From Planctomycetota bacterium (lineage in GTDB: Bacteria; Planctomycetota; Planctomycetia; Pirellulales; UBA1268): 39,507 nt of DNA. The notes beneath the pieces are model-generated. The model was not told where the DNA came from. It searched no databases and saw nothing but the letters and a program-made list of their open reading frames with translations. The DNA is taken from contig VGZO01000041.1 of NCBI GenBank assembly GCA_016872555.1, forward strand, positions 1-39,507. Direction: 5' to 3'. This document shows positions 9,143 through 32,002 of this stretch, one piece after another; positions within the stretch are counted from its first letter, which is position 1, and the number at the start of each line of letters is the position of its first letter. The translations under genes and the position numbers were made by a program.

Positions 9143-9282
9143 GGACCGGTCCCCTTGCCGAAGACGTAGAAGAAAACGATCGATCCCTCTCCCCGTGGAG
9201 GAATGTACCGCTCGGGGCCAGTCGATGCGAGACGTGGGCGCCGGCTTGAGCGGCGGCTGGGGATCGACCACACTCTTCGACC

Positions 9283-10269
9283 ATGCAGAAACGCGCGTTC
9301 GGACAGACCGGCTGGCAGGTCACCGAGATCGGGTTCGGGGCCTGGGCGATCGGCGGCGGCCAGTGGGGCGGCGCCGACGAAGGCGAATCGATGGCCGCGC
9401 TCCATGCCGCCCTCGATGCGGGGATCAATTTTTTCGACACCGCCGACGTCTACGGCGATGGCCTCTCGGAGCGGCTCATCGCCCGTCTCCGCCGCGAGCG
9501 GCACGAGCCGTTCTTCGTCGCCACCAAGGCGGGCCGACGGCTCTCGCCCCATACCGCAGCGGGGTACGACGCCGCCCACCTGACGGCGTTCGTCGACCGC
9601 AGCCTCGTCAACCTCGCCGTCGACACGATCGACCTGCTCCAGCTCCACTGCCCCCCGACCGAGGTCTATTATCGCCCTGAGGTGTTCGGCGTCCTCGATC
9701 GCCTCGTCGCCGCCGGCAAGATCCGCTTCTACGGCGTCAGCGTCGAGAAGGTCGAGGAGGCTCTCAAGGCGATCGAGTATCCCGGCGTGCAGTCGGTGCA
9801 GATCATCGTCAATTGTTTCCGTCTCCGTCCCACCGAACTGTTCTTCGAGCAGGCGCTGCGGCGGCGCGTGGCGGTGATCGCGCGGGTGCCGCTGGCCAGC
9901 GGGATACTCACCGGCCGGCTCCGCCCCGACACCGCGTTTCCCGCCGACGACCACCGCCACTTCAACCGCGACGGGGCGGGGTTCGACCGTGGCGAGACCT
10001 TCTCGGGCGTCGACTACCGCACCGGCCTGGAGGCGGTCGAACGCCTCCGCGCGCTGGTGCCACCGGGGTGGACGATGTCGCAGTTCGCGCTGGCCTGGAT
10101 CCTGTCATTCGCCGCCGTCACGACCGTGATCCCGGGTGGACGGCGAGCCGAGCAGGTCGTGGAGAATGCCGGCGCCGCGGCACTGCCGCGCCTCGACCCA
10201 CGGACACGGGCGGCGGTCCAGGAGATCTACGACGACCTCATCCGGCCGCTGGTGCACCACGTGTGGTGA
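9283..10269 (+). CDS. Aldo/keto reductase
   Basis: A 328-residue soluble NADPH-dependent oxidoreductase of the aldo/keto reductase superfamily. The catalytic tetrad is intact: D52 and Y57 (FFDTADVYGDG), K82 (VATKAG) and H122 (LLQLHCP). The C-terminal cofactor region TTVIPGGRRAEQVVENAGA also matches the family. Length is normal for the YajO/general-stress-like class. It is divergent from the DUF1559 gene, and no strong ribosome binding site precedes the ATG. The physiological substrate cannot be read from the sequence. Confidence 0.95.
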   Translation: MQKRAFGQTGWQVTEIGFGAWAIGGGQWGGADEGESMAALHAALDAGINFFDTADVYGDGLSERLIARLRRERHEPFFVATKAGRRLSPHTAAGYDAAHLTAFVDRSLVNLAVDTIDLLQLHCPPTEVYYRPEVFGVLDRLVAAGKIRFYGVSVEKVEEALKAIEYPGVQSVQIIVNCFRLRPTELFFEQALRRRVAVIARVPLASGILTGRLRPDTAFPADDHRHFNRDGAGFDRGETFSGVDYRTGLEAVERLRALVPPGWTMSQFALAWILSFAAVTTVIPGGRRAEQVVENAGAAALPRLDPRTRAAVQEIYDDLIRPLVHHVW

Positions 10270-10309
10270 CCGATCACGGCGTGGTGAACGGGTCGCGGCC
10301 GGAAAACGC

Positions 10310-10801
10310 TCAGAGGTTCATCCCGAGGTAGCCCCCCGCGGCATCGCAGGCGGCCTGCTCGCGGGCCAGGCGCTCGAGGGCCCGGCCGAGGTCACCGGCG
10401 GCGATGAACCGGTCGAACTCGACCTCGACGGCATGCTTGGCCGACTGGGTGAGCCAGACCACCGCCGGCTGCGTCAGCCAGTCGCAGGTTTCCCGGTCGA
10501 GCGTGATCGAGAGGTCGCTCCCCACGGTGCGGCGGTCGGCCTCGTCGGTGATGACGGTTCCCTCGAAGACGAAACCGACCCAGCCGCTGTCGGGGTCGTT
10601 GGTGAATCGAAACGTGCAGTGGCCGTCGGTGAGATAATAGGTGTTGCGGGTACCGTGGTGGCCGACCGCGCGCTGCATCCGCTCGAGCCGCCGGCGGAAC
10701 CCCGGTGAGGCGTCGAGCGGGATGTCGAGCCGCGGCACGCCGCGGAGCGGCGTGCATTCGAACGAGATCTCGACGGCGGGAGGAGGGGCGTCGCTCGTCA
10801 T
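10310..10801 (-). CDS. Conserved-looking hypothetical protein
   Basis: A 163-residue cytosolic protein with no signal or membrane span and no family I recognise. It has a balanced composition with beta-type segments (WVGFVFEGTVITDEADRR, SDLSITLDRETCDWL) and an acidic helical end (FDRFIAAGDLGRALERLAREQ). Its ATG (10799-10801 on the minus strand) overlaps the apbE ATG on the other strand. It converges with the aldo/keto reductase gene 40 bases away. Its own ribosome binding site is weak. Confidence 0.75.
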   Translation of the reverse strand: MTSDAPPPAVEISFECTPLRGVPRLDIPLDASPGFRRRLERMQRAVGHHGTRNTYYLTDGHCTFRFTNDPDSGWVGFVFEGTVITDEADRRTVGSDLSITLDRETCDWLTQPAVVWLTQSAKHAVEVEFDRFIAAGDLGRALERLAREQAACDAAGGYLGMNL

Positions 10802-10802
10802 G
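10799..10802. promoter_or_regulatory. Head-to-head overlapping start codons
   Basis: The tetramer CATG holds the ATG of the hypothetical gene on the minus strand (10801-10799) and the ATG of apbE on the plus strand (10800-10802). There is no intergenic space, so each gene's ribosome binding site and promoter must lie inside the other's reading frame. The purine run at 10778-10788 serves apbE. Confidence 0.6.
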
Positions 10803-11858
10803 GCCGGGTTTCCCAGGAGCGCCCGAGTCTACTCCAGACGCCGCGCCGCGGCGATCCTCGCCGGCGCCGTCGCCGCGCCGGCGCTGGCGGCTGACGCACC
10901 GCGTCTCGAGCGCGTGACGCGGTCGCGGCGGATGATGGGAGTACCCTGGGCGGTCACGGTGTTCGCCCCGGATGGTGAGGGGCGCGCCGCCGCCGAGGCG
11001 GCCCTCGACGAGGTCGCCCGGCTCGATGGAGTCCTCTCCGACTACGACCCGGAGAGCGAACTGTCGCGCCTCTCCGCGGCGGCACCGACCGACATTCCGA
11101 TCCCCCTGTCCCCCGATCTCGGCGCCGTCCTGGCGCGGGCGGTCGAGATCCGCACCGCCAGCGGGGGTGCCTTCGATCCCACCGTCGGGCCCCTGACCAC
11201 GCTGTGGCGGCAGGCACGTCGCTCCGGGAGGATGCCGCTGCCGGACCGTCTCGCCGCTGCCCGGGCGGCGGTCGGCCCCGAAGCTCTCGTGGTCGAGGGG
11301 AATCCGCTCACCGCCCGCCTCACCAGGCCGGGGATGCGCCTCGACCTCGGCGGGATCGGCATGGGGTATGCGATCGACCGGGCACTGTCCCTTCTGGCCG
11401 GCCGCGGTGTCGCCGCGGCCCTCGTCGACGCGTCCGGCGATATCGGGGCCTCGGGACCACCTCCCGGAGCCGATGGCTGGAAAGTGGCCGTCGCTGCGCT
11501 CGACCCCCGCCAGGATGGCAGCGAGACGCTGCGCCTCACGCACGCCGCGGTCACCACCTCGGGCGACGCCTTCCAGGCGATCGAGATCGACGGCAGGCGC
11601 TACAGCCACATCGTCGATCCGCGCACCGGGATCGGGGTGCCGGGGCCAGCCGCCGTCACGGTGATCGGTCCCGATGCGATCACCGCCGACGCCGCCGCCA
11701 CGGCGGCAAGCGTGCTCGGGCCGGTGGCCGGCTCGGCGTTCGTGGCGGAACTGGCAGGCTGCGCGGCGCGGTTCGTGTGGCAGGAGGAGGGGCGGCCGCG
11801 GTCCTCGATGACGGTCGGCTGGCCCGACCGGGCACGGCGGTCGCCCGACGGCGGTTGA
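10800..11858 (+). CDS. apbE: FAD:protein FMN transferase
   Basis: A 352-residue ApbE/thiamine-biosynthesis lipoprotein family enzyme, which attaches FMN through a phosphoester bond to Thr/Ser of exported flavoproteins such as NqrB, NqrC and RnfG. Visible blocks: RMMGVPWAVTVF near the start of the mature part, DLGGIGMGYAID, VDASGDIGASG, and VTTSGDAFQAIEIDGRRY followed by SHIVDPRTG. The N-terminus VYSRRRAAAILAGAVAAPALAADA is a Tat-type export signal with no lipobox Cys. GGGAGGAGGGG at 10778-10788 is its ribosome binding site and lies within the neighbour's coding region. No Nqr or Rnf target is in the window. Confidence 0.93.
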   Translation: MAGFPRSARVYSRRRAAAILAGAVAAPALAADAPRLERVTRSRRMMGVPWAVTVFAPDGEGRAAAEAALDEVARLDGVLSDYDPESELSRLSAAAPTDIPIPLSPDLGAVLARAVEIRTASGGAFDPTVGPLTTLWRQARRSGRMPLPDRLAAARAAVGPEALVVEGNPLTARLTRPGMRLDLGGIGMGYAIDRALSLLAGRGVAAALVDASGDIGASGPPPGADGWKVAVAALDPRQDGSETLRLTHAAVTTSGDAFQAIEIDGRRYSHIVDPRTGIGVPGPAAVTVIGPDAITADAAATAASVLGPVAGSAFVAELAGCAARFVWQEEGRPRSSMTVGWPDRARRSPDGG

Positions 11859-12128
11859 TCGTCGCTCCGGACGTGCACCAAACGCGGCGGCCGCGCTCCC
11901 CCGTATCGCAAGGGGACGCCTCCAGGCTCTCCCGCTCAGCCCGGCTTCACCAGCTTCTCAACGACGGTGACGATTCCTCCAAGTTTGACGGTTGGGAGGA
12001 CGATACCACCTTCGCCGTCGCTGCGCCCTCGCGAGACGACCCGGTCGCGGGTCGGGGGGCACCGCGGCGTGGGAGCCGGCCTTTGGCCGGCTGCCCCCGA
12101 GGGCGCAGCGGCGGCCCTTGAACGGGCC
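11859..12128. other. Intergenic region upstream of TolC-like gene, with REP-like palindrome
   Basis: 270 bases without a supported gene. It carries a hairpin at 12074-12092 (listed separately) and a weaker TCCTCC/GGAGGA inverted repeat near 11985-12002. No convincing -10 element was found. A plus-strand frame stays open from 11967 into the TolC gene, but its translation is Arg/Gly/Pro-rich, unlike protein. Confidence 0.4.
12074..12092. repeat. REP-like perfect hairpin
   Basis: AGCCGGCC-TTT-GGCCGGCT is a perfect 8-bp inverted repeat with a TTT loop, flanked by GGG and GCCCC that extend the symmetry loosely. It resembles the short dispersed palindromes found between genes in many GC-rich genomes. 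Only this one copy was noticed in the window. Confidence 0.4.
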
Positions 12129-14474
12129 ATGGATTTCATCCCCCGACGGACACGCCCCGTGCATCCCACCAGCCGACAGGCGCTCGTCGCGGCGTTGATC
12201 GCCTCGCTCCTGGCGCCGGGATGCGCGCCGCGGCAGCCGTTCCACTTCTTCGAGGACGGCGACCTGTCGCACTACGTCGGGGCGGTGCAGAAGATCGAGT
12301 ATCCCGACTCGTGCTCGCCGCCGCTCGACGAGGCGGCCGGCACGGTCGAACCGCTGACCCTCTCCAACGCCCGCTTCGACCAGATCTGGGAAGTGAGCCT
12401 CGAGGAGGCGATCCGCACGGCGCTGGAAAACGGCAAGGTGCTGCGGAACCTCGGCGGCCGGTTCGGCAGCTTCGGCGGGCCGCGGCCCCAGACCGGCGAA
12501 CCGCCGGTGTCGCTGCTCACGCAGCCGCTCGGCACGCCGACCGTCTACGACCCGGCGATCGTCGAGACCGACCCGATCCGCGGCGTCGAGCCGGCGCTGG
12601 CGTTCTTCGACGCACAGTTGGCCAGCTCGCTGACCTGGGAGCGGCAGAACCGGCCGCAGAACGTCGGCGGCATCGGCACGCAGATCTTCCAGCAGCAGTT
12701 CCTCGGCGACACCGGCAACTGGACGACGAGCATCACCAAACGGACGGCGACCGGGGCGACGCTCGGCTTCGCCAACTCGACGCTCTACGACAACAACAAC
12801 TCGCCGATCCGCCAGGACGGCGTGCCCTCGACGTTCACCACCAACTACGACTTCACCTTCAACCAGCCGCTCCTCGAGGGCGCTGGCGTGACCTACAACC
12901 GGATCGCCGGTCCCGATCCGTTCAACAACATTGACGGCCGGCCGATCTTCCGCGGCGTGCTGCTGGCGCGGATCAATGCCGACATTTCGCTGGCCGACTT
13001 CGAGGCCGGCGTCCGCAACCTCGTCAGCGACACCGAGCAGTCGTATTGGGAGCTGTACTTCGCCTACCGCAACCTCGAGGCGCGCAAGGCCGGGCGCGAC
13101 AGCGCCCTCGAGGCCTGGCGGCGGGTCCACGCGCTGTATGTCGAGCAGTCGCGCGGCGGCGAAGCCGACAAGGAGGCCCAGGCGCGCGAGCAGTACTTCT
13201 TCTTCCGCAGCGACGTGGAAAGCGCGCTGACCGACGTCTACCGCTGCGAGAACCGCCTCCGCTACATGATGGGGATCTCCGCCAGCGACGGGCGCCTGAT
13301 CCGCCCCGCTGACGAGCCGACCACGGCACGGATCGCCTTCGACTGGCAGCAGGCCCTCACCGAGGCGCTATCGCGGTCGGCCGAGCTCCGTAAGCAGAAG
13401 TGGGTGATCAAGCAGCGCGAACTGGAGCTCGTGGCCGCCAAGAACCTGCTGCTGCCGCGGCTGGATCTCGTCGGCCGGTGGCGGTTCCTCGGCATGGGGC
13501 AGGAGTTGATCAACCAGAACTACACCCCCTACGACGCCAACGGCCAAGACCCGCTCGCCGGTACCGACGCCTATTCGTCGCTGTTCAGCGGGCAGTTCCA
13601 GGAATGGCAGAGCGGGGCGCAATTCCTGATGCCGCTCGGGTTCCGCCGCGAACTGGCCACAGTTCGCCACCACCAGCTGCAACTGGCGCGCGAGCGGGCC
13701 CGCCTCCAGGACGAGGAGCTCGAGGCTTCGCACGCGCTGGTCGAGGCGGTGCGCAACGTCGATACCAACTTCGCGCTGTCGCAGACCAACTTCAATCGCC
13801 GTGTCGCCGCCGAGCGGCAGGTCGAGGCGGTCCAGGCCGCCTATGACGCCGGCACGGTGACGTTCGACCAGCTGCTCGACGCCCAGCGCCGCCGGGCCGA
13901 CGCCGAGAGCGCGTATTACCGGGCGATCGTCGACTACAACCGTTCGATCTCGCAGCTCCATTTCCGCAAGGGTTCGCTGCTCGAATTCAACGGCGTGTTC
14001 CTCGCCGAGGGGCCGTGGCCGGGGAAGGCCTACTTCGACGCCTACCGCCGCGCCCGGCAGCGCGACGCCAGCCTGTACCTCGACTACGGCCATTCCCGGC
14101 CAGGCGTGTTCAGCCGCGGGCCGATCACGCAGCGCTTCTCCGATGTCGGTGCGTCGACGGCGGTCGAACAGCTCGAGCCGCGCGATCCGGCGACAGTCGA
14201 GGAACCGTCGCCGCCGACCGGTAGCGACGGCAAACCCGGGGACGGCCGCCCCACGCCCGCCGAGGAAGTGCCGGCGCCGCGCCCCAAGGATCCGCCGCGG
14301 GGCACCGCCACCCTCCCGGGGAATCGACCGCTGGCCGCCTCCGTGCTCGCCCCCATCAGCCCGTTGGCGACCGACGGGGCGGCCCGCGTCGTCGACGGGA
14401 TGCGCGGCCGGCCGTTGCCCGGGAGCCGGCTGATCGAGGGTCCCGAGGTCGCCGCGTCGACACAACTGCGCTGA
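12129..14474 (+). CDS. TolC-like outer membrane efflux lipoprotein
   Basis: A 781-residue protein of the outer membrane efflux (OEP/TolC) family. The ATG at 12129 gives a lipoprotein signal ending in LLAPGCAP. The first OEP repeat begins around LEEAIRTALENGKVLRNL. The second part has the typical helical barrel pattern (TVRHHQLQLARERARLQDEEL) and the near-diagnostic block TVTFDQLLDAQRRRADAES and YYRAIVDYNRSISQLHF. A Pro-rich 100-residue tail is an addition common in planctomycetes. It should form the outer-membrane channel of an efflux or type I secretion complex. No HlyD or inner-membrane pump gene adjoins it. Confidence 0.9.
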   Translation: MDFIPRRTRPVHPTSRQALVAALIASLLAPGCAPRQPFHFFEDGDLSHYVGAVQKIEYPDSCSPPLDEAAGTVEPLTLSNARFDQIWEVSLEEAIRTALENGKVLRNLGGRFGSFGGPRPQTGEPPVSLLTQPLGTPTVYDPAIVETDPIRGVEPALAFFDAQLASSLTWERQNRPQNVGGIGTQIFQQQFLGDTGNWTTSITKRTATGATLGFANSTLYDNNNSPIRQDGVPSTFTTNYDFTFNQPLLEGAGVTYNRIAGPDPFNNIDGRPIFRGVLLARINADISLADFEAGVRNLVSDTEQSYWELYFAYRNLEARKAGRDSALEAWRRVHALYVEQSRGGEADKEAQAREQYFFFRSDVESALTDVYRCENRLRYMMGISASDGRLIRPADEPTTARIAFDWQQALTEALSRSAELRKQKWVIKQRELELVAAKNLLLPRLDLVGRWRFLGMGQELINQNYTPYDANGQDPLAGTDAYSSLFSGQFQEWQSGAQFLMPLGFRRELATVRHHQLQLARERARLQDEELEASHALVEAVRNVDTNFALSQTNFNRRVAAERQVEAVQAAYDAGTVTFDQLLDAQRRRADAESAYYRAIVDYNRSISQLHFRKGSLLEFNGVFLAEGPWPGKAYFDAYRRARQRDASLYLDYGHSRPGVFSRGPITQRFSDVGASTAVEQLEPRDPATVEEPSPPTGSDGKPGDGRPTPAEEVPAPRPKDPPRGTATLPGNRPLAASVLAPISPLATDGAARVVDGMRGRPLPGSRLIEGPEVAASTQLR

Positions 14475-14484
14475 GGTCCGGCGC

Positions 14485-15621
14485 CTACTCCGCGCGGAGC
14501 AGCCCGGCGGCGCGAATCGCCTCGTCGAGCCGGCGCCCGTCGGAGCGGCGCAGGGTCTCCAGATGGGCCCGCGCCTCGGGGCGCGGGCAGGCCGTGAGGT
14601 AGCCGGCCACCGCGCGGCGCACGTGGGGATCATCGCCACCGAGCGTGTGCCACAGCCCGGCGACGCGGTCGACGTGGTCCCAGCCGCGCTCGCGCGCCAG
14701 GTCGATCACCGCGTCGGCGGCGACCACGGGGCTGGTGGCGAGAGTCGCGGTCGCCGCCACGATCTCCTCGCGGGGGATGGTGGCGGCCAGTTCCTCCCAG
14801 GCGAAGCGCAGGGCCCCGAGGAGCTGCTTCTGCTCGACGGGGCGCTGCGGCGCGACGCGCCCCATGAGCCACTCGAGCCCCGCCGGGCCGTCGGCGACGA
14901 GCAGGCCTCCCATCAGCCCGTCAGTGCCGGCGCGGAAATCGTCGGCGTTGGCCTCGAGCGCCGCGCGGAGCGGGGCCGACGACGCCGGGGCGTCGGCCGG
15001 CAGGCCGGCGTGGGCGACGATCCCCAGCGCCAGGCCATAGAACCCGCGGCGGCGCTGGTCGATCCCCGGATCGCCGAGCCACTCGGCGAGGGGCCGGGCG
15101 GCGAGCGCCGGCGCGGCCGCGCGGACCGCCGCGAACGGTGCCTGGCCGAACTCGGCGAACGCATCGGCGGCGATCGCCTCGAGCGGGTGCTCCAGACGCG
15201 CCGCGAAAAACGCCAGCCGCTCGGCACTCGGCCGGCCCGTGTCGGGCGCCCGTGCGACATGCGCCAAAAGCAGTTCGTCGGCCGCGACCGCTTCGAAAGG
15301 GGGTGTGCCGTCGGCGCGGGCCTCGCCACCGCCGAACAACAGCGCCGTCCCCGCTACCGGCGCCGGTACCCGGGCGGTGACGAGGGCCTCGTCGGGGAGC
15401 GGGCGGCCGCGGATCAGGCTGCCGATCGCGAACGGCTGCACCTGCCCGCCGGCCGGCGTCTCGAGCGCCGGCCCGGCCGCCGAGCCGACCGCGGTCGTCG
15501 GCGCCGCATCGCGGCGCATCGCCAGCGTCGGCCCGACGGTGCCGCAGAACGGGCAGGCCAGCGCGGCGCCGCCGACGGCCACCGTGACCCAGCCGGCCAC
15601 CCAGCCGAAGCAGCGCTTCAT
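14485..15621 (-). CDS. Secreted CPFC-motif helical-repeat protein (paralogue 2)
   Basis: A 378-residue exported protein. The signal peptide (MKRCFGWVAGWVTVAVGGAALA) is followed at once by CPFC, so a Cys-x-x-Cys pair sits at the mature N-terminus. The rest is Ala-rich helix pairs resembling a HEAT-type solenoid, and it aligns along its length with the protein at 19830-21365 (shared RLAFF..LE, the RRR..Y...LG block, and YL.ACP.PEA near the C-terminus). Unlike that paralogue it has no C-terminal membrane helix. ATG 15621 is preferred for the signal peptide; ATG 15669 or 15666 would add 15-16 residues and has GGGGTGG upstream. It is last in the run of nine same-strand genes. Function unknown; metal, heme or redox binding is possible. 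Confidence 0.8.
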   Translation of the reverse strand: MKRCFGWVAGWVTVAVGGAALACPFCGTVGPTLAMRRDAAPTTAVGSAAGPALETPAGGQVQPFAIGSLIRGRPLPDEALVTARVPAPVAGTALLFGGGEARADGTPPFEAVAADELLLAHVARAPDTGRPSAERLAFFAARLEHPLEAIAADAFAEFGQAPFAAVRAAAPALAARPLAEWLGDPGIDQRRRGFYGLALGIVAHAGLPADAPASSAPLRAALEANADDFRAGTDGLMGGLLVADGPAGLEWLMGRVAPQRPVEQKQLLGALRFAWEELAATIPREEIVAATATLATSPVVAADAVIDLARERGWDHVDRVAGLWHTLGGDDPHVRRAVAGYLTACPRPEARAHLETLRRSDGRRLDEAIRAAGLLRAE

Positions 15622-15685
15622 GTGGCCGATCGGGGCGACCGACCGAGGCGCCAGCGAGCCAGGCATCATCCACCCCGTGGCGACG

Positions 15686-16354
15686 TCATTCGGCCGCGGA
15701 ACCGAACCGCTCCTGCTGCATCCGCTTCCGCCAGTAGGGGGTCGTGCACAGCAGCAACCGGCCTGAACCCTCGTAGACGTAGCTCCGTTCCTGGCCGCTG
15801 AGCCAGAAACTCAGGAAGTTGCTCGTTGGTCGCTTGAGCGACAGCCGGATGCCGGCCGTCCGGGCCATGACTTGCGGGCCGTCGACCACGAGCCGGTCGT
15901 CTTCGAGGCGGATCTCCTCGACCGGGCCGTCGACCGACAGCAGCGCCTGGCCATCCCCACGAAGTACGGTCTTGTACCAGATGAACCCCTCGCCGGCGAG
16001 AAACGCCGTCCACCACGACTCCCGGCGGACCGTGATCTCGACCTCGCCTTCGGAGACCCAGAAGCACTTGCGGTCGAGGATCCACTGCTCGCCGCGCCCG
16101 ATCCGCAGTGGATGGTAGCCGCCGAGCGTCGAGTCGAGGAACACCGTGCCCGTGCCGGTGAACCGGGGGCGGAGGAGCGATTCGTCCGAGAACAGCGACA
16201 CCCAGGCGGCGCGGAGCGACGGCAACGGCACGTCCATCGTGACCGCACCCTGCATGTGGTTGAGGGCCCCGCGCTCGGTGCGGATCGTGTCGTCGGCGAG
16301 GCTGGCCTTCACCCAGCGCATTCCCTCGGTGTGCTGGACGTCGAAGGTCGCCAT
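15686..16354 (-). CDS. AIM24-family protein (DUF124)
   Basis: A 222-residue protein of the AIM24/TIGR00266 family: a beta-helix-like soluble fold with GEGFIWYKTVLRGDGQALLSV and LEDDRLVVDGPQVMARTAGI as the clearest family blocks. Bacterial members are of unknown biochemical role; the yeast member is a mitochondrial inner-membrane organiser. The ATG at 16354 has a strong GGAGGTGA site with 6-base spacing. That site contains the TGA where the upstream substrate-binding gene would stop in the shifted frame, which argues for tight coupling to it. Confidence 0.88.
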   Translation of the reverse strand: MATFDVQHTEGMRWVKASLADDTIRTERGALNHMQGAVTMDVPLPSLRAAWVSLFSDESLLRPRFTGTGTVFLDSTLGGYHPLRIGRGEQWILDRKCFWVSEGEVEITVRRESWWTAFLAGEGFIWYKTVLRGDGQALLSVDGPVEEIRLEDDRLVVDGPQVMARTAGIRLSLKRPTSNFLSFWLSGQERSYVYEGSGRLLLCTTPYWRKRMQQERFGSAAE

Positions 16355-16360
16355 CGAGTT

Positions 16361-17642
16361 TCACCTCCGCCCCGCGGACGACGCCCCCCTTCGTCCAATC
16401 GCACGACCAGCCGGGAAACGCCAGCGCCGGGTAGGGGTCGGGGGGGATCGGAGCGGACGACTCGTGGACCACGTCGAACTGCCGGTCGGAGCGGATCCGG
16501 CCGATCCGGCAAGGCTTGGCACAGTGCTGCGTGGCCGGATCCATCGCCAGCCGGCCGCCGGGACCGGCGAACGACACGCCGTCGCGGAGGGCCTGGAGCA
16601 CCGCCCCGGTGGCCACCGATCCGGCACGGCGCACGGCGGCAGCCCAGAGGTGGAGGAGCGAGTAGCCCGTCTCCATCGTGTCGCTGGTCACCCGGTCGAA
16701 GCCGAACTCACGGCGGAAGCCGGCGATCCACTCGCCGTTGCCCGCCCCGTCGTCGCTTTGGAAGTAGGCGGAGACGGCGTAGTGCCCTGCCACGACGTCG
16801 GGGCGGAGGAGGCGCAGTTCATCCTCACCGATCGTCGTCGACATGACCGGGAGTCGGCGCGGGTCGAGGCCGGCCTCCGCGAGCCGGGAAAACAGCGCCA
16901 GGGCCGGCGTCCCGGAGAGCGTGCTGAGGATGCAGTCGGCGCCGCTCGACGTGATCGTCTCGACCGTGTCGGCGGTCACCGCAGCGGTCGTCGGGACGAG
17001 GATCACGCCGGCGAATTGCAGGGCCCGGTCGATCAGTGCCCGGCGGACGACGTGGGTCATCGTCCGGCCGTAGAAGTCGTCGCTGCCGACCACGAACAGC
17101 CGCCGCCGCAAGCCGCCGGCGGCCGACTGCAGCCAGTCGAGGACCGGCAGGACCTGTTGGTTGGGGATCTGACCGCCGTAGATGACGAACCGCGACGACT
17201 CGTTCCCCTCGTAGGGCACGCCGTAGAACAGCAGCCGCTTGTATTCCTCGACGCTGGGAATCACCGCCTTCCGCGACGGTGTCGACCAGCAGCCGAACAG
17301 CGCCACGGCGCCGCCGTCGAGCAACCGGCGGGCGCGGTTGGCGAACAGGTCGGGACGGGATCGGGTGTCGGGGGCGGAAAACTCGATCTGCCGGCCGAGC
17401 AGGCCGCCGCCGGCGTTGATCTCCTCGATGGCATGGATCTGCGCGTCGCGGACCGGTGTCGCGCTGATCGCCACCGGACCGGTCTGGGAATGGAGCAAGC
17501 CGATGGTCACGGTCCGCACCGGGGTCGGCAGGCCGCAGCCGGCGATCGTCACCGGACCGAGTGCCCGCGCGGCGGCGAGCGTCGCGGCCCAGCCGTCCCG
17601 GACGGCGGCGCGGCGGCTGCGGCTGTCGGCCTGGCGCGGCAT
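16361..17642 (-). pseudogene. UrtA-like (urea/amide-type) substrate-binding lipoprotein, apparent frameshift at a G6 run
   Basis: About 427 residues of a periplasmic-binding protein of the branched-chain amino acid/urea type (Peripla_BP_5, UrtA/AmiC group): IGLLHSQTGPVAIS, IEEINAGGGLLGRQIEF, ALFGCWSTPSRKAVIPSVEE, FYGVPYEGNESS and PNQQVLPVLDWL match the group closely. A lipobox (TIAGC, C36) suggests membrane anchoring. GAGGAG overlaps the stop of the upstream DUF4239 gene. As written, the frame has no stop at the expected end and runs antithetically through the AIM24 gene to 15666. Dropping one G from the GGGGGG at 16389-16384 gives a TGA at 16363-16361, exactly within the AIM24 ribosome binding site. 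This is a real frameshift, a sequencing error, or recoding. No UrtBCDE genes are present. Confidence 0.8.
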
Positions 17643-17646
17643 CGCC

Positions 17647-18432
17647 TCACTCCTCGACCATGTGGGCGTACAGCGTCTCGAACACCTCCGGCGCGATGCT
17701 CACCTCGCCGCGGAACGGATTGTCCATCGCCGCGATCAGGAAGATCATCGTGCCGAGGTAGGCCGACAGCAGGCCACCGAGGAGCAGATGGGTGACGAAC
17801 TTCATGTCGAACAGCCAGACCATCGCGATCGTGATCAGCGCCCCGAGGATCACGACGTACCACATCACCACCGGGATGCTCGACGTGACCGCGAACAGGC
17901 GCATCCGCCGGGCCTCGAGGAACGAGTTGAATTGCCGCAGCGCCTCGGCATGGAGGATCTCCTCGGCGGGGGTTTCCGGCTGGAAAGCGAGCAATTGCTC
18001 CTCGAACGCCTGGGCACGGACCGACCCCTCGACCGGGACGATGCCGCGGCGCTGCAGCGGCCAGGCATATTTGATGACGTAGCGCGTGTAGTCGCGCAGC
18101 GCCCAGCGCAGATTCTGGCCCCACGGCGCGGGGTACTGGCCGACGTCTTCATACAGCGCCGCCAGCGCCGCCGCCTCGTGGGTGACGTTGGCCTCGGCGG
18201 CGGAGAAATTCTGGTAGGCAGTGACCGCGATCAGGCCGAGCAGCAGGCCGTAGAACACGCAGAAGCACGACAGCACGTAGCCGACGACGTCGTTGCACGC
18301 CGGGGTCGAACGGACGAACTGGCGGAGGATCGGCCGGACGACCAGCGCCCCGCCCCAGTAGATCCCGACGAACAGCGCGATCATCCCCAGCGCGAGCGTC
18401 GCCGAGGGGATGTCGTAAATCCAGTAGAGCAT
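17647..18432 (-). CDS. DUF4239 (bestrophin-like) membrane protein
   Basis: A 261-residue membrane protein with four hydrophobic segments arranged 2+2: ATLALGMIALFVGIYWGGALVV and GYVLSCFCVFYGLLLGLIAVTAY near the N-terminus, then a 100-residue charged helical domain, then VVMWYVVILGALITIAMVWLF and LLLGGLLSAYLGTMIFLIAAM. The C-terminal DNPFRGEVSIAPE is the characteristic DUF4239 ending. The ATG at 18432 was preferred over a TTG at 18495. Its stop is 4 bases from the substrate-binding gene. A second member is at 31190-32002. A channel-like role is suggested only by distant bestrophin similarity. Confidence 0.85.
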   Translation of the reverse strand: MLYWIYDIPSATLALGMIALFVGIYWGGALVVRPILRQFVRSTPACNDVVGYVLSCFCVFYGLLLGLIAVTAYQNFSAAEANVTHEAAALAALYEDVGQYPAPWGQNLRWALRDYTRYVIKYAWPLQRRGIVPVEGSVRAQAFEEQLLAFQPETPAEEILHAEALRQFNSFLEARRMRLFAVTSSIPVVMWYVVILGALITIAMVWLFDMKFVTHLLLGGLLSAYLGTMIFLIAAMDNPFRGEVSIAPEVFETLYAHMVEE

Positions 18433-18505
18433 CGCGGTGCGGCGGCGGCGGACGGACTCCGGGGAGGTTTCGCCCCGGGGAAGCGATGGTACCAACGCCG
18501 CGGGG

Positions 18506-19078
18506 TCACTTCACGTCGTCGCCATCCAGCGCATAAATCGCCAGATGGCCGCCACCGGGCCCGCGCAGTTCCTCGACGCGAAACACCCCCGTCACCGCCA
18601 CCGGCCGGATCGAGAACTCGGCGCTCGTGCCCGGCGCCATCCGCACGACGACGCAGTCGTGGAGCGCCGCGCCGGGGCCGAAGCAGCACTCCATGTTGTC
18701 GCGCACGAGAACGAACTGGGTGAGCCCGGTCTGCTGGAAGCTGGGGAGGATGTAGCCGCGGATCCGGACGCGCTGTCGCTCGAGCTCGCGGACCCGCGGC
18801 GTGAGCGCGTCGGGGGTGAAGGGTGCGCCTTTTTCCAGCCCGAGCTTGATGTCGTCGAACGTGATCTCGCGCGGTGCGGCAGGCGCGGCGGAGGTCGCCG
18901 CGGCGGCGGGGGCGGCGGGCAGCGCCGTCGACGGCGATCCCCCGGGGGCCGCGTCGGCCGCGGGAGGAACGGGGCGCGTGGCGGGGGATCGGGGGCCACC
19001 GCAGCCGAGCAGCGCCACCACCCCGGTGACCGTCGCGCCGGCGCGGAGGGCCTGGAATAATGGAAGGGAGGAAGCCAT
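18506..19078 (-). CDS. DUF3299-like lipoprotein
   Basis: A 190-residue lipoprotein (ALLGCGG lipobox, C26) with an Ala/Pro-rich linker and a C-terminal domain of about 110 residues of the DUF3299 type: RVRIRGYILPSFQQTGLTQFVLVRD then ECCFGPGAALHDCVVVRM, which places a Cys-Cys pair in a loop. It is clearly paralogous to the gene directly upstream (19113-19799), which has GYMYPGKQQRGIVQFVLVRD and DCCFG. The Cys pair and family habit of sitting beside ABC-type permeases suggest a metal or redox role in the envelope. The ATG at 19078 lies 34 bases after the upstream stop. Confidence 0.82.
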   Translation of the reverse strand: MASSLPLFQALRAGATVTGVVALLGCGGPRSPATRPVPPAADAAPGGSPSTALPAAPAAAATSAAPAAPREITFDDIKLGLEKGAPFTPDALTPRVRELERQRVRIRGYILPSFQQTGLTQFVLVRDNMECCFGPGAALHDCVVVRMAPGTSAEFSIRPVAVTGVFRVEELRGPGGGHLAIYALDGDDVK

Positions 19079-19112
19079 GAGATCAGTGCCGGCTCGTCCA
19101 CCGCCGCGCTGC

Positions 19113-19799
19113 TCAGCGGAGGGTGGCGTTTTCGAGGTGGTAGAACACGCCCCCCTCGAGGGCCGTCGTGCCGGTCGGTCGCACCGAGAACCGGCCGGCC
19201 ACCTTGCACACCTTCGGTGTGAACATCGTGCCGACCGGATCGGCAAGTTGCACGAGCACGCGGTCGGTGATCTTGGGATTGCCACCGAAGCAGCAGTCGC
19301 CCTGGTCGCGGACGAGGACGAACTGCACGATCCCGCGCTGCTGCTTGCCGGGATACATGTAGCCCTTGAGGAGCACGTCGCGGCCGTCGAGGGCCAGGGC
19401 GCTTTCCGGGATCATGTGGGGCGGGTCGCCGGGGAGCGGCTGGAGCGCGCCGTAGTCGATCCGCTCGAACCCCTCGGGCAGCTCGGCGGCGTAGACGCCC
19501 GCCTGCCAGGCGAGGCCCGCGACGAGGGCCACGGCGGCGACGAGCGTCGCGCCGATCGCCAGCAGCCGGCCGGTGTAGTCCTCGGGGCGGGTGGCGATCG
19601 CCCGCCAGCCGATCACTCCGGCGACGAGGGCGCCGAGCGGCACCAACGCCAACCACCAATCGAGAAGCGTGAGTGGCGAGAGGACGGCGAGCACGACCGC
19701 CGGGACCACGGTGGGCGGCAGCGCGCGGTAGCGGTCGGCGTCGCCGGCGACGGGCCGCGCGACGTCGGGGGCGGGAGTATCGAACAGGCCGCTGGCCAT
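19113..19799 (-). CDS. DUF3299-like protein with two N-terminal membrane helices
   Basis: A 228-residue protein. Residues about 28-67 hold two adjacent hydrophobic segments (VVPAVVLAVLSPLTLLDW, LALVPLGALVAGVIGW, a DUF4190-like hairpin), and about 80-104 hold another (LLAIGATLVAAVALVAGLAWQAG). The external C-terminal domain is DUF3299-like (DVLLKGYMYPGKQQRGIVQF, DCCFGGNPKITDRVLVQL). It is the membrane-embedded partner of the lipoprotein downstream. No ligand can be assigned. The ATG at 19799 is 31 bases after the stop of the CPFC gene. Confidence 0.82.
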   Translation of the reverse strand: MASGLFDTPAPDVARPVAGDADRYRALPPTVVPAVVLAVLSPLTLLDWWLALVPLGALVAGVIGWRAIATRPEDYTGRLLAIGATLVAAVALVAGLAWQAGVYAAELPEGFERIDYGALQPLPGDPPHMIPESALALDGRDVLLKGYMYPGKQQRGIVQFVLVRDQGDCCFGGNPKITDRVLVQLADPVGTMFTPKVCKVAGRFSVRPTGTTALEGGVFYHLENATLR

Positions 19800-19829
19800 G
19801 GTGTCGGGCCCGGAGGACAGGAAGGGGGA

Positions 19830-21365
19830 TCAGCCGTGACGGGTGGCGGCATGGAGGGCGGTGCGGACGATCGACGCCAGAAGCAGGCCCAGCGCCGCGA
19901 CCATCAAGCCCCAGGGAACCCACGAGCCCTCCGTGGATGGCGACGCGGCGAGGGCCGGCGGCACGGCGCCGGCTGGATCGACCGCCGCGCGGTCGTCGGT
20001 GGCGTCGTCGTCGGCGAGTACGGGGGCGACCCGGGCGACGAGGGCGGCGTCGGTGCCCGAATCGGCGGTTGGTGCAGGTGCCGAGGGAGTTGCGGTCGAG
20101 GGATCACCCGGATCGCCGTCGTCCGCCGTGGTCGCCGCCGGCGGCGGTGTGGCGCCGCCCCCTTTTGCCGCCAACACCCCCGCGAACCCCGCCAGCGTCG
20201 CCGCCCGGCGCACCGCCTCGGGGTCGATCGCGGCCAGTCGCTTCACCGCCGCGTCCGCCTCGGGAAGCGGGCAGGCCTTGAGGTAATTGATCACCGGCTC
20301 ACGGACGAAGATGTTGTCGTCGGTCGCGTCGGTGAACAGTTGCTCGAGCCGACCGACCACAGACCAGTCCTGCCAGCGGGCCAGATCGGCGATCACCAGA
20401 TCCGCCAGCTTCGGCTCGTCGAGGAGCTTGCGCAGCGACGCCAATACCCGCTCCCGCGGCACGTCACGCGATTCCTCGCCGAGGAACCGCAGCGCCATCA
20501 CCGCGGCGTAGGTTTCGGTGAACGGTACGTCGCGTTTGCCTCCGGGAAGGAACAGCCGGTCGACCAGATCGAGCCCCGTGGCTCCCTCGAGCGTGACGTA
20601 GCAGGCGATCAGGGCATCGAGCCCGGAGCGGACCTCGGCCTTGTCGCCGTCGTACCCCTCGCCGGCGAGGATCGCGGCGATCCGCGCGGCATCGGCCTTA
20701 CTGCCGCAGACCCCGAGCATCGTGGCGTAGAGCCGGCGCCGGTTGGAGGCGACCTTCGGATTCTCGATCCACGCCAGCAGTTGGGCCGCGTCCATGCGGC
20801 TTTCGAGCCCACGGACGTCGTCGTACGGGGCGACGGCGAACTCGTCGTAGGCGTCGCGGGCGAGCGTCTCGTCGGCGTCCTCGAGGTATTGCTGGAAGAA
20901 CGCCAGCCGATCCGGACCCTTCTCCGGCAGCGTCGCCAGCCGGCGGATGTAGTCCACCGCCCGGTCGCTGACGGCGATCGGGGTCGACCAGACCAGTTTC
21001 GGCGGCTCGACCGCCATCAGCAGGTGGAGCCCGCCGACCGGCTTGCGATCGAGCATGATCGTCTCGATCGGCGTCCCGTCGGGGCCGGAGTGCCCGGCCT
21101 CGGTGACGAGGTCCCCTCCCTTGAGCACCTCGACGACCTCGAACCGGCCCTTGGGGAGCGGGCCGTCAGCCCGCAGTTTCAGCGCTCCCTCGGCCGGTGC
21201 TTCCACCAGCCGGGCGATCACCGCCGCCTGGCTCTGGGCGATTTCCTGGGCGAAGGTCAGCGACACCGCGCTGCAGAACGGGCAGGCGGCGGCCGGGCGC
21301 GGAAGCGATCCCAGGGCCAGGCCGAGGACCGTCACGGCGGCGACGAGCGAGCGGAGTTTCTTCAT
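19830..21365 (-). CDS. CPFC-motif helical-repeat protein with C-terminal membrane anchor (paralogue 1)
   Basis: A 511-residue exported protein. After a signal peptide (LVAAVTVLGLALGSLPRPAAA) the mature chain begins CPFC. An N-terminal beta-rich part (residues about 45-150: RFEVVEVLKGGDLV, THE-type strands) resembles domains that follow cobalamin- or metal-type Cys motifs in other secreted proteins, but no family is certain. A helical-repeat solenoid (about 160-390) follows, then a Thr/Pro/Ala-rich linker and one membrane helix (PWGLMVAALGLLLASIVRTAL) at the C-terminus, giving a type I topology with the domains outside. It is paralogous to 14485-15621. It lies between the ABC permease gene and the DUF3299 genes, implying a shared function. 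Confidence 0.82.
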   Translation of the reverse strand: MKKLRSLVAAVTVLGLALGSLPRPAAACPFCSAVSLTFAQEIAQSQAAVIARLVEAPAEGALKLRADGPLPKGRFEVVEVLKGGDLVTEAGHSGPDGTPIETIMLDRKPVGGLHLLMAVEPPKLVWSTPIAVSDRAVDYIRRLATLPEKGPDRLAFFQQYLEDADETLARDAYDEFAVAPYDDVRGLESRMDAAQLLAWIENPKVASNRRRLYATMLGVCGSKADAARIAAILAGEGYDGDKAEVRSGLDALIACYVTLEGATGLDLVDRLFLPGGKRDVPFTETYAAVMALRFLGEESRDVPRERVLASLRKLLDEPKLADLVIADLARWQDWSVVGRLEQLFTDATDDNIFVREPVINYLKACPLPEADAAVKRLAAIDPEAVRRAATLAGFAGVLAAKGGGATPPPAATTADDGDPGDPSTATPSAPAPTADSGTDAALVARVAPVLADDDATDDRAAVDPAGAVPPALAASPSTEGSWVPWGLMVAALGLLLASIVRTALHAATRHG

Positions 21366-21440
21366 GCCCCGATTCTACCAGCCCCCCGCGGCCGACACCC
21401 CCCGGCGGTCCGCGAGCGGGACCCGGCCGCGGGCGGCCGG

Positions 21441-22784
21441 TCAGCCCGGCCCCTGTAGCCAGCGGGCCACGTCGGTCCGGTAGGCGGCGATCGCGGGCAC
21501 CAGGGCGGCGACGATCCCGACCAGGACGAGCCCCGGCACGAGCAGCAGTTCCGTTCTCGGCGCCGCCGACAGCACGCTGGCAGAGACGCCGGCGTTGGTC
21601 GAGATCCACGGGCCCAGGGCCCCCACCAGCAGGTGACCGAGGATCCACCCGGCCAGGCCGCCGCCGACGGCCAGGAGAACCGCCTCGGCGAGCACCGCGG
21701 AGAGCACCACGCTCCGCCGGGCGCCGAGGGCACGCATGATCGCCACGTCGCGCGTCCGTTCCAGCGACGAGCCGATCATGCTCACCAGGATCCCGATCGC
21801 CGACACGAGCACCACCATCGCCGTCACCAGCAACAGCAGCAGTTCCAGCGGCCGGACGAACAGGTCGAGGAGTTGACGGATCTCGCCGACGGGGAGCACC
21901 GCCTGGGCGTCGCGCCCCTCGTTGATCGCCGTCCGCAGGACCATCGCCGACAGCTCCGCCGGCAGCGACGGCATGCCGGGGAGCCCGGGCTGGGAGGACG
22001 TCTCGAGGAGGATCGCGGTCACCTCGCGCTGCGCCTCGGGGAGGGGCGCGGGGCGGCCGAGAGCCGACGGCGGCGGCGGTGGGGGCGGCTCGACCCCCTC
22101 GGGAAGCGGCTTGGCGTGGCCGTCCTGGAGATAGAACCCCTCCATGTTGACGAACACGCCGCGGTCGATCGGCGTGTCGGTCCGGGCGAGGATCCCGACG
22201 ACCCGGAACGGATCGTGGACCGGGCCATTGTCGGCGCCGTGCGTCGGCGAAAACGTATCGCCGACGGCGAGCCGCAACTTCGCGGCGACGGTGGCGCCGA
22301 GCACGCCGGCGAAATAGTCGTCGTCGCGGAAATTGCCCCCCGCCGCGAACACGAACGGTTCGCCGTCGCCGCGGGTCAGCTCGCCGAAGAACGCGGCGTC
22401 GGTCCCGATCACGCGGAACGAGTTGAAATAGTCCCCCATGCAGATCGGCACGGCAGTCTTCGTGCTCGCGGCGAACCGGCCGTCGACACCGTCGGCGCGG
22501 CGCGCGGCCGGGAGGAACTCGGCGTAGAACGCCCAGGGGACGTTCTCGATCGGCTTGCTGATGAAGTAGACGCTGTTGAGCACCAGCTGCAGTGGGCTCC
22601 CCTTGGCGCCGACGATCATGTTGTAGCCCAGCCCGGCACCGCTCTCGAACGCCTTCTGCACCAGCCCCGCGGTGACCAGCGTCGCCACGACCAGTGCCAC
22701 GCCCAGCGCCAACGACAGGCTCGTCAGCAGGCTGGTGAGGGGCCGCTGCCGGATGCTGCGCCAGGCGATGCCGAGGATCCCCAT
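21441..22784 (-). CDS. FtsX/MacB-type ABC transporter permease
   Basis: A 447-residue permease of the MacB/LolE (FtsX) class. One membrane helix near residues 15-40 (TSLLTSLSLALGVALVVATLV), a periplasmic domain of about 220 residues (MacB_PCD), then three helices (LLLLVTAMVVLVSAIGILVSMIG; SAVLAEAVLLAVGGGLAGWILGHLL; LLLVPGLVLVGIVAALVPAIAAY). The family motif ERTRDVAIMRALGARR lies between the second and third helices. A GTG at 22793 overlaps the ATPase stop, but ATG 22784 has GGAGGGGAG at proper spacing and was chosen. This class usually moves lipids, lipoproteins or peptides, or drives mechanotransmission, and does not import small solutes. Confidence 0.92.
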   Translation of the reverse strand: MGILGIAWRSIRQRPLTSLLTSLSLALGVALVVATLVTAGLVQKAFESGAGLGYNMIVGAKGSPLQLVLNSVYFISKPIENVPWAFYAEFLPAARRADGVDGRFAASTKTAVPICMGDYFNSFRVIGTDAAFFGELTRGDGEPFVFAAGGNFRDDDYFAGVLGATVAAKLRLAVGDTFSPTHGADNGPVHDPFRVVGILARTDTPIDRGVFVNMEGFYLQDGHAKPLPEGVEPPPPPPPSALGRPAPLPEAQREVTAILLETSSQPGLPGMPSLPAELSAMVLRTAINEGRDAQAVLPVGEIRQLLDLFVRPLELLLLLVTAMVVLVSAIGILVSMIGSSLERTRDVAIMRALGARRSVVLSAVLAEAVLLAVGGGLAGWILGHLLVGALGPWISTNAGVSASVLSAAPRTELLLVPGLVLVGIVAALVPAIAAYRTDVARWLQGPG

Positions 22785-22789
22785 CGGTG

Positions 22790-23497
22790 TCACTCCCCTC
22801 CGACCGTCGCCCGGGCATGCCCCGCGGCGGCGCGGTTGAAGTGCTCGAGCCGCAGCCGCCGGGGAAACAGCCCCGCCACCTCCGGCGCGTGGGTCACGAC
22901 CACCAGCGCCACGCCGTGCGCCGAACAGGTGTCGCGGAGCAGGTCGATGACCTGCGCCTGGTGGGCGGGATCGACGCTCGCGGTCGGTTCGTCGGCGAGC
23001 ACGACGCGCGGCCGGTTGGCCAGTGCCCGGGCGACCGCGACGCGCTGCTGCTGGCCGACCGAGAGCTGGGCGGGACGGTAGCCGAGGCGGTGGGAGAGGC
23101 CGACCGCGTCGAGCAGGCCCTCGGCCCGGCGCCGGTCGGGGCGATCGGAACCGAACGACATCGCGACCAGCACGTTTTCCAGGGCGGTGAATCCGGGGAG
23201 GAGATTGAACGACTGGAACACGAGGCCGAGCTTGTCGGCGCGGAGCCGGTCGCGCTGCGGCTCCGCCAGCCTGGTGATGTCGATGCCGTCGACGAGGACG
23301 TGGCCGGTGTCGGGGCGGAGGATGCCGGCGATCACGTTGAGGAGTGTCGACTTGCCGGAACCGCTCGCCCCCTCGAGCGCCACCTGCGCGCCGGCCGGGA
23401 TCGTCAACTCGGGCACGTCGAGGATCTCGACGCGGCCCCCCTCGGGCTGCGGAAACGACTTGCGGACGCCGGCGAGTTCGATGACGGGCGTGGTCAT
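22790..23497 (-). CDS. LolD/MacB-type ABC transporter ATP-binding protein
   Basis: A 235-residue ATPase with all motifs: Walker A GASGSGKST, Q-loop LVFQSFNLLPGFTALENVLV, signature LSVGQQQRVAVARAL, Walker B RVVLADEPTASVD and the switch histidine in VVVTHAPEV. The LVFQSFNLLP type Q-loop and short length put it in the LolD/MacB/SalX subclass, which pairs with FtsX-type permeases such as the one it overlaps. ATG 23497 gives MTTPVIELAGVRKSF, the normal start of the family. It is the first gene of the long minus-strand run. Confidence 0.94.
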   Translation of the reverse strand: MTTPVIELAGVRKSFPQPEGGRVEILDVPELTIPAGAQVALEGASGSGKSTLLNVIAGILRPDTGHVLVDGIDITRLAEPQRDRLRADKLGLVFQSFNLLPGFTALENVLVAMSFGSDRPDRRRAEGLLDAVGLSHRLGYRPAQLSVGQQQRVAVARALANRPRVVLADEPTASVDPAHQAQVIDLLRDTCSAHGVALVVVTHAPEVAGLFPRRLRLEHFNRAAAGHARATVGGE

Positions 23498-23563
23498 GAC
23501 GAGAATGTACGCGGCGGGCGACGACGGCGTCACGGGCACAGTGGCGCGGGGGGCGCCGGCGAT

Positions 23564-23593
23564 TTGAGCGGCCGGCGGTGGGAGGTGTATATT
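23564..23593 (+). promoter_or_regulatory. Probable sigma-70-type promoter of gap
   Basis: TTGAGC (23564-23569) and TATATT (23588-23593) are spaced by 18 bases and lie 75 bases upstream of the GTG start of gap. They match four of six and five of six positions of the bacterial -35 and -10 consensus and stand out in very GC-rich sequence. Confidence 0.5.
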
Positions 23594-23667
23594 CCGCCCG
23601 CGTTTTCCCCTCCGTTTCGTCTCGCGCCGGCGCCCGAGGGCCGGTTCACCGCAGCAGGAGCGATCTC

Positions 23668-31093: not shown

Positions 31094-31189
31094 GTGCCGC
31101 CCCGGGCGTCCGGCATCGTCGCGCCGCCGTGCCATTGGGTAGGCTGCGCGGCGGTGGTGCCGGGATCCGGTCGATCGTGGAACTGTCGC

Positions 31190-32002
31190 ATGGACATGCA
31201 AACCGGCGGATTGGTCAACTGCGGCCTGTTCATGATCGGTGGAGTGGCCGGCGCGCTGGTCGTGGTGGCGATCACACGGCTGTTGTTCAAGGGGGATGTC
31301 CTCCGTGACGCCCACGGCGTCACCGGCAACCTCCTGGCCGTCACGGGGACGCTGTACGCCGTGACGCTCGGCCTGATCGTCGTCGACGCGATGACACGGT
31401 TCGAGCAAGCCGTCGACACTGTCCAGCAGCAATCGAACTACCTGCTCGAGTCGTTTCATCTCGCCAACCGGCTGTCCGAGCCGGCCCGGAGCCGGGTTCA
31501 GCAGCGCTGCCGCGACTACGCCGTGGCCGTCGTCGAGCAGGAGTGGCCGGCGATGGCGGCCGGACGGACGAGCGCGGAGGCTCGGGCGGCGATGACGAGC
31601 ATTACCCGCGCGCTCGACGGCTTCGAACCCATCAGCGCCAGCGAGCAGGCGGTGTTCCCGCTGCTGATCGGGCAGATCTCGTCGCTCTGGCACCACCGCC
31701 GCGAGCGTCTCGGCACCGCCGCCTTCGGGATTCCGGCGATCGAGTGGGTGGCCCTGTTCGTCGGGGCGGCGGCGACGATCGTGTTCACCGGCCTGTTCGC
31801 CGTCGACAACTCCCGCCTGCACGTCCTGCTGACGGTGATGGTGGCCCTGATGATCGGGCTCAACCTGTACCTCGTGTCGCTGTTCGGCTATCCGTTCGCC
31901 GGCGACTTGTCGTTGTCGGCCGCGACCTTCCGGCACGATCTGGCGATCTTCGACGAGATGCTCTCGGCACGGCCCGGCGGCGCCGGCGAGCCGGGGACTT
32001 GA
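31190..32002 (+). CDS. DUF4239 (bestrophin-like) membrane protein, second copy
   Basis: A 270-residue protein with the same 2+2 layout as 17647-18432: FMIGGVAGALVVVAITRLLF and LLAVTGTLYAVTLGLIVVDAM, a middle helical domain of about 110 residues (FEQAVDTVQQQSNYLLESFHLANRL is the usual DUF4239 opening), then VALFVGAAATIVFTGLFAV and LLTVMVALMIGLNLYLVSLFGYPF. The family ending YPFAGDLSLSAATFR is clear. ATG 31190 or 31196 could serve. It is closer to the standard DUF4239 family than the copy in the nine-gene run. Confidence 0.88.
   Translation: MDMQTGGLVNCGLFMIGGVAGALVVVAITRLLFKGDVLRDAHGVTGNLLAVTGTLYAVTLGLIVVDAMTRFEQAVDTVQQQSNYLLESFHLANRLSEPARSRVQQRCRDYAVAVVEQEWPAMAAGRTSAEARAAMTSITRALDGFEPISASEQAVFPLLIGQISSLWHHRRERLGTAAFGIPAIEWVALFVGAAATIVFTGLFAVDNSRLHVLLTVMVALMIGLNLYLVSLFGYPFAGDLSLSAATFRHDLAIFDEMLSARPGGAGEPGT

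Follow-up and report, generated by a model that had tools for sequence, protein, structure and literature searches.

What does a run of nine genes read from one strand do, when it joins an FtsX-type ABC transporter pair with two secreted proteins bearing a CPFC motif, two DUF3299 proteins, a DUF4239 protein, an UrtA-like binding protein and an AIM24 domain protein? The run occupies positions 14485-23497 of the minus strand in contig VGZO01000041.1 (assembly GCA_016872555.1) of a planctomycete of the order Pirellulales; the stretch read, positions 1 to 39,507 of this contig (in nucleotides, nt), is called the window below. An initial annotation had proposed metal or heme handling at the envelope, with the downstream half as a linked sensor/channel module. 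We find that the nine genes are two modules, a six-gene core and a three-gene cassette, and we consider it probable that the core represents a planctomycete form of the envelope system of Zrg type, serving envelope zinc handling with metal transfer by a MacB-like mechanotransmission pair, and that the cassette is separate from it. The Zrg-type reading is based on the kinship of the permease to ZrgB/PA4065 and of DUF3299a to PA4066/ZrgE, on a phylum-wide linkage of ABC ATPase, permease and DUF3299, and on a putative operator found before the operon in several lineages.

All nine open reading frames (ORFs) were confirmed, and the consecutive minus-strand arrangement with tight spacing was as annotated, with no gap above 75 nt and two overlaps. 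The ABC and FtsX genes overlap by 4 nt, the successive gaps downstream are 75, 30, 34, 73 and 4 nt, and the UrtA/AIM24 overlap is followed by 64 nt before the likely CPFC2 start at 15621. From the first gene to the last, the features are:

22790..23497, minus strand: ABC ATPase, nucleotide-binding subunit of ZrgC/LolD/MacB type (PF00005, 1.2e-33).
21441..22793, minus strand: FtsX/MacB_PCD permease of the ZrgB subfamily (FtsX 6.6e-12; MacB_PCD 4.5e-10; full-length alignment to ZrgB/PA4065).
19830..21365, minus strand: CPFC1 (invariant C28 and C31; structure model; Foldseek).
19113..19799, minus strand: DUF3299 copy b, N-terminal hydrophobic helices and a domain with CCFGGNPK (Pfam DUF3299, E 0.015, below cut-off).
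18506..19078, minus strand: DUF3299 copy a, a lipoprotein in all probability, with an LLGC lipobox; its domain carries ECCFGPGA (Pfam DUF3299, PF11736, 1e-5, over cut-off).
17647..18432, minus strand: cassette gene 1, DUF4239/bestrophin-like membrane protein (PF14023, 2.5e-63).
16341..17642, minus strand: cassette gene 2, UrtA-like binding protein (Peripla_BP_5, 8.6e-104; TIGR03407, 316 bits, below the cut-off of 492.75).
15686..16354, minus strand: cassette gene 3, AIM24 domain protein (PF01987, 1.8e-28).
14485..15621, minus strand: CPFC2, second secreted CPFC protein, HEAT-like (ALACPFC after the signal peptide; homologue of CPFC1).
23498..23667, no strand: intergenic region between the operon and a divergent GAPDH gene; Zur-like box not found.

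The core consists of ABC ATPase–FtsX permease–CPFC1–DUF3299b–DUF3299a–CPFC2. Relatives of CPFC1 were found in 58 of 59 related genomes from 20 families, reduced genomes of 2-3 Mb among them, most often as a pair of genes separated by a few kb. When the nine gene families were mapped, the order ABC-FtsX-CPFC1-DUF3299b-DUF3299a was present in 92 of 128 loci, many of the other 36 ending at a contig edge; the gene set is far beyond chance. This five-gene order is kept in full in 14 families of Pirellulales, so that the lack of conservation outside the strain which the initial annotation had named as fatal to its proposal is clearly not what the core shows. In a family of the same class and a different order (f21; L177, L186, L188) the genes are linked but shuffled, as ABC-FtsX-DUF3299b-DUF3299a-CPFC(-CPFC).

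Beyond the class CPFC proteins are nearly absent and DUF3299 genes are common. Twenty DUF3299 loci were read, 18 from other classes and two (L227, L228) from the window's own class, and an ABC-FtsX pair lay just upstream of DUF3299 in 17 of them; L215 has one gene in between, and L227 a MacB-type permease. In f17, a family without CPFC proteins, the operon is reduced to ABC-FtsX-DUF3299b in nine of ten loci. This reduced operon, together with the linkage outside the class, indicates that the irreducible unit is ATPase, permease and DUF3299. In the L227 locus (genome G051, 9220-14171, minus strand), DUF3299b stands beside a classical MacB-type permease, an ATPase and an HlyD protein with C-terminal EF-hands, an arrangement that replaces the ZrgB-type pair of the nine other f17 genomes. 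A secreted HEAT-repeat protein that lacks the CPFC motif adjoins ABC-FtsX-DUF3299 in another class (L219, 7934-9238; L221, 8622-9905; L225, 10267-11574) and is a possible CPFC analogue. Beyond the core, the clusters of neighbouring genes consisted for the most part of shadow ORFs and synteny within the family (GAPDH, ClpP, OEP), and no further conserved core partner outside the window's family was recognised among the neighbour-cluster matches listed.

To which known transporter does the pair belong? Over its full length the permease aligns with a Phaeobacter ZrgB-type protein at 34% identity over 442 residues (3e-53) and with a PA4065-type protein of Pseudomonas aeruginosa at 30% identity over 446 residues; a permease profile scored the two Zrg permeases at 246 and 235 bits and MacB at 61. 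The ATPase was tried as a discriminator between Zrg and Lol and set aside, as LolD (216 bits), YbbA (211), PA4064 (208) and ZrgC (206) were not separated. With MacAB-TolC the pair shares the MacB_PCD and FtsX domains and the mechanotransmission of the MacB superfamily; in contrast to it, ATPase and permease are separate genes, no MacA/HlyD-type gene is found in the window operon, and the alignment with E. coli MacB is confined to 76 residues close to the C-terminus, G051 being the one MacAB-like exception among the relatives.

LolCDE likewise combines a LolD-like ATPase with FtsX-type permeases, and the pair could belong to housekeeping envelope biogenesis, a Lol-like transporter that moves lipoproteins or other envelope proteins and has the CPFC and DUF3299 proteins for its clients or chaperones in the periplasm, zinc control being incidental in some lineages. 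Membership of LolCDE in the FtsX/MacB superfamily, the lipobox of DUF3299a and the membrane anchor of CPFC1 favour this, as does the presence of CPFC relatives in nearly all related genomes, the reduced ones included. The permease argues the other way: it is single, its full-length match is ZrgB/PA4065, it has no significant alignment to LolC (BLAST E 0.78) and a short, weak one to LolE (1.6e-4 over 93 residues), and the lolCE profile TIGR02212 gives 23.5 bits against a cut-off of 362.45. Together with the operator sites described below, this makes the housekeeping explanation unlikely, though it is the foremost of the rivals.

The reference loci were read directly and are DUF2796-ABC-permease-DUF3299 in P. 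aeruginosa and Fur-family-DUF2796-ABC-permease-DUF3299 in Phaeobacter. ZrgABCDE of Vibrio has an ABC ATPase, a separate permease with four transmembrane helices and a MacB-like periplasmic domain, and the DUF3299 protein ZrgE in one operon (PMC9817125, PMC9820375), as is found here. The window operon differs from it in that ZrgA (DUF2796) was not found and no ZrgD-like gene was seen, that two CPFC proteins are added, and that two DUF3299 proteins with CCFG take the place of one with GACIHVPPPP; the Zur link, demonstrated in Vibrio, is here a putative box in related lineages, and the window operon itself is without it. PA4063-PA4066 of P. aeruginosa (PMC11481552, PMC8561739) also corresponds in permease and DUF3299 fold, and differs in its ZrgA-like PA4063, missing here, and in the pyochelin-cobalt export proposed for it. 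By sequence relationship the core is thus of the Zrg (zinc-starvation) type, with the ZrgB/C/E core shared, and is not classed as a ZrgABCDE system. The statement of the initial annotation that it knew no described system with this composition is not supported, since ATPase, permease and DUF3299 are shared with zrgCBE / PA4064-4066; what sets the window operon apart is the presence of CPFC proteins in the place of ZrgA and of a CCFG-bearing DUF3299 pair.

The two DUF3299 proteins carry invariant cysteine pairs, C130 and C131 in DUF3299a (motif ECCFGPGA; alignment A3) and both cysteines of DCCFGGNPK in DUF3299b (alignment A4), at the position where PA4066 carries GACIHVPPPP. Searched against solved structures, the DUF3299a profile matched 4hsp, the structure of PA4066, and nothing else (E 0.012). 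The AlphaFold2 model of DUF3299a (mean pLDDT, the predicted local distance difference test, of 79) also has its best structural match in 4hsp (Z 9.7, 3.5 A, 105 residues), unrelated OB folds scoring Z 8.0 and below. Profile and model agree in making DUF3299a kin to PA4066/ZrgE.

The AlphaFold2 model of CPFC1 (mean pLDDT 82.9, predicted template modelling score 0.71) begins with a signal peptide and a small beta domain, continues into a HEAT-type solenoid and, after a disordered linker, ends in a C-terminal transmembrane helix. C28 and C31 are invariant in alignments of 24 and 39 sequences and lie directly after the apparent signal peptide cleavage site, so that the mature protein would start with Cys-Pro-Phe-Cys. 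In Foldseek, the top four hits of CPFC1 were all the agrin NtA domain (probability 1.00, E 0.012-0.018, template modelling score about 0.54 by target), which is described there as a relative of N-TIMP-1; VIA-align matched the solenoid alone on the same model, a PDB profile search with CPFC1 gave nothing significant, and HEAT_2 was matched weakly in both CPFC1 and CPFC2 by the Pfam domain search. NTR/TIMP-like domains may share the OB-type fold predicted for the N-terminal domain, and they too have a cysteine at the mature N-terminus; they differ in cysteine spacing, and the CPFC proteins are bacterial and continue into a HEAT solenoid and a membrane anchor. CPFC proteins were not described in such a composition in the open-access subset of the literature searched. 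We propose that they bind metal.

Invariant cysteine pairs in CPFC1 and both DUF3299 copies, with a CxxC at the mature N-terminus, would also suit thiol, copper or heme chemistry, the CPFC and CCFG proteins acting in the envelope as a relay for disulfides or copper that is powered or positioned by the ABC pair. The predicted folds are OB and NTR, with no thioredoxin fold seen; no histidine follows CPFC, which excludes a CxxCH heme motif; and the genes that share the putative operator include ZigA, with no copper or heme gene recognised among them. We regard such a relay as improbable, more so than the housekeeping role. The metal part of the earlier proposal is supported for the upper half of the operon, as zinc, by its Zrg kinship and the Zur-like box of several lineages; the heme part is not supported, no heme-binding signature or heme gene having been found.

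Is the core under zinc control? A palindrome seen upstream of the ABC gene in other families was tightened to TGCAAYTNARTTGCA, of the 7-1-7 form that is typical of Fur-superfamily operators. A first, looser box, TTGCAANNNNNTTGCAA at one mismatch, exceeded its reversed control by only a little in some genomes and was dropped in favour of the tighter form. Across 146 genomes of the order, TGCAAYTNARTTGCA has 36 exact sites and the reversed pattern has 4. Genes preceded by such sites encode ZigA zinc-metallochaperone GTPases (594, 596 and 602 bits; cut-off 600), in one case with a Fur-family gene adjacent, His-rich secreted proteins, and proteins whose ends are PEP-CTERM-like; several exact sites fall within coding sequences or ahead of unrelated genes and seem to be chance matches. 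A comparable setting, PEP-CTERM exoproteins close to Fur-family and COG0523 genes, has been reported for the zinc protein ZepA (PMC10957091). When the search was started from ZigA instead, the box (up to two mismatches) was found in seven of 12 upstream regions, all seven in the window's own family, so the regulon exists in that family, though genome G000 gave no ZigA. On these grounds we regard TGCAAYTNARTTGCA as a putative Zur box; in both Vibrio and Pseudomonas, Zur regulates the zrg genes (PMC9817125, PMC11481552).

Before the ABC gene of the operon the box, again at up to two mismatches, occurs in six of 28 loci of other families against 0.5% of background windows, a count that includes regions from which the motif was partly derived; the control regions before FtsX (0 of 29) and before CPFC1 (0 of 44) have none. 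Outside the sample the rate was 2 of 27 loci against a background of 0.15%: L186, from a different order, has an exact match 119 nt ahead of the ABC gene, and L211, of another class, a two-mismatch site at 36 nt. L301 (f7) likewise has an exact site where the ABC gene begins. In all, Zur-like boxes precede the operon in at least six families and two orders, which speaks against the housekeeping explanation.

Several sites were seen in their own settings. In L260 (2435-4375), a Fur-family gene (3923-4375), a box and a ZigA GTPase gene lie side by side, a candidate zur locus of Pirellulales. In L303 (3488-3949; DUF2946) and L315 (3506-4009), from two genomes, exact boxes stand at the start of His-rich secreted proteins, and DUF1559 pseudopilin-like genes come after these; boxes in L297 and L299 stand before such genes too.

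Other points weigh against a zinc role of the core. The motif derives in part from upstream regions later counted; the box is found in none of the 74 operon loci of the window's family, which also favours the housekeeping explanation, and in none of nine in f17; and a patchy box with nearly universal genes fits a housekeeping envelope role as well. ZrgA (PF10986) was found in none of the 59 relatives by a search that detects both proteobacterial controls (2e-57, 3e-49), and the CPFC proteins are without a demonstrated metal ligand set. In the described systems, PA4066 has no evident zinc binding (PMC11481552), and a zrgE knockout has no growth phenotype under zinc chelators (PMC9820375). In the window the best TGCAAYTNARTTGCA site anywhere has four mismatches. 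The missing box at the operon in the window's family and in f17 makes zinc control lineage-specific.

How might the Zrg-type core work? Pumps of the MacB superfamily pass ATP-driven motion to periplasmic partners. The ATPase-permease pair would work by such MacB-like mechanotransmission and would drive the transfer of zinc, or of another soft transition metal, between the cysteine sites of the DUF3299 OB-fold and the CPFC proteins, the mature N-terminal Cys-x-x-Cys of the latter taking the place of the His-rich ZrgA. Import, export and the loading of exported proteins would all be compatible with this. In Vibrio, Zur represses the zrg genes, and growth under zinc limitation requires ZrgA (PMC9820375, PMC9817125); for P. 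aeruginosa, export of pyochelin-cobalt by the pair has been argued (PMC11481552). More tentatively, the CPFC proteins may be a new class of envelope metallochaperone, in which an NTR/TIMP-like domain on a HEAT solenoid carries zinc at its N-terminal cysteine pair and is worked by a MacB-type mechanotransmission pump through CCFG DUF3299 relays; this would be the ancestral planctomycete zinc machine, and ZrgABCDE, with ZrgA, its sister variant.

A TolC-type gene lies nearby: an outer membrane efflux protein (OEP/TolC type, 1.6e-20) at 11967-14474 on the plus strand of the window, convergent to the operon. This neighbourhood is kept in at least 19 loci of the window's family, and a TolC-type neighbour of a MacB-superfamily pump may be more than coincidence.

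Does the DUF4239–UrtA-like–AIM24 cassette belong to the same machine? That all nine genes form one functional system could be argued from their tight spacing, from the 14-nt UrtA/AIM24 overlap, and from the place of the cassette before CPFC2 in 38 of the 87 mapped loci of the window's family, many others being truncated by contig ends. In 24 family loci, however, CPFC2 follows DUF3299a directly with no cassette between; no DUF4239, UrtA or AIM24 gene stands at the core in any other family among the 128 mapped loci; genome G016 has the intact trio on a contig separate from the core (L233); and family f7 has an overlapping DUF4239-AIM24 pair with neither UrtA nor the core (L234). The trio, absent at many family cores and found elsewhere, is therefore an inserted cassette and not a part of the core machine, and a single nine-gene system is very improbable. 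The earlier guess of a linked sensor/channel module is supported, as a separable one. Placed inside the operon, the cassette is likely co-expressed with the core.

The cassette is probably a ligand-sensing, channel-type membrane module. Its binding protein shares the Peripla_BP_5 domain with UrtA of urea permeases and with kinase-fused UrtA-like sensors; it is not assigned to urea binding, since it falls below the TIGR03407 cut-off and has DUF4239 and AIM24 as neighbours, with no UrtBCDE adjoining. In another family of the order (L236, 8625-10976) one protein combines an UrtA-like domain with a Ser/Thr protein kinase, which supports the sensory reading; long frames are seen in other families as well. 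A second DUF4239/bestrophin-like gene of the window (31094-32002, plus strand, 6.3e-49) is a distant relative of the operon copy.

In relatives the UrtA stop codon TGA lies inside the first AIM24 codons (ATGGCGACCTTTGA) and the 14-nt overlap is conserved. In the window this codon is CGA, as Phe4 of AIM24 is TTC and not TTT, a change that is silent in AIM24 and leaves the UrtA frame open to 15666, through all of AIM24. The changed base is 16343, and a 98% identical relative (L082) keeps the stop; the loss is either real or a base error in the metagenome-assembled genome. A frameshift in a G-homopolymer of UrtA was considered and rejected, as comparison with the relatives traces the lost stop to one changed base.

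What DUF3299 (ZrgE/PA4066) does, and in which direction ZrgBC/PA4064-4065 transport, is contested: a zinc importer in Vibrio stands against a pyochelin-cobalt exporter in Pseudomonas. To this the planctomycete loci add that the conserved unit is the ATPase, a ZrgB-type permease and DUF3299, that the zinc-binding ZrgA appears replaceable, and that the planctomycete partners carry invariant cysteine pairs; for Pirellulales they also supply a candidate Zur operator, checked against ZigA genes.

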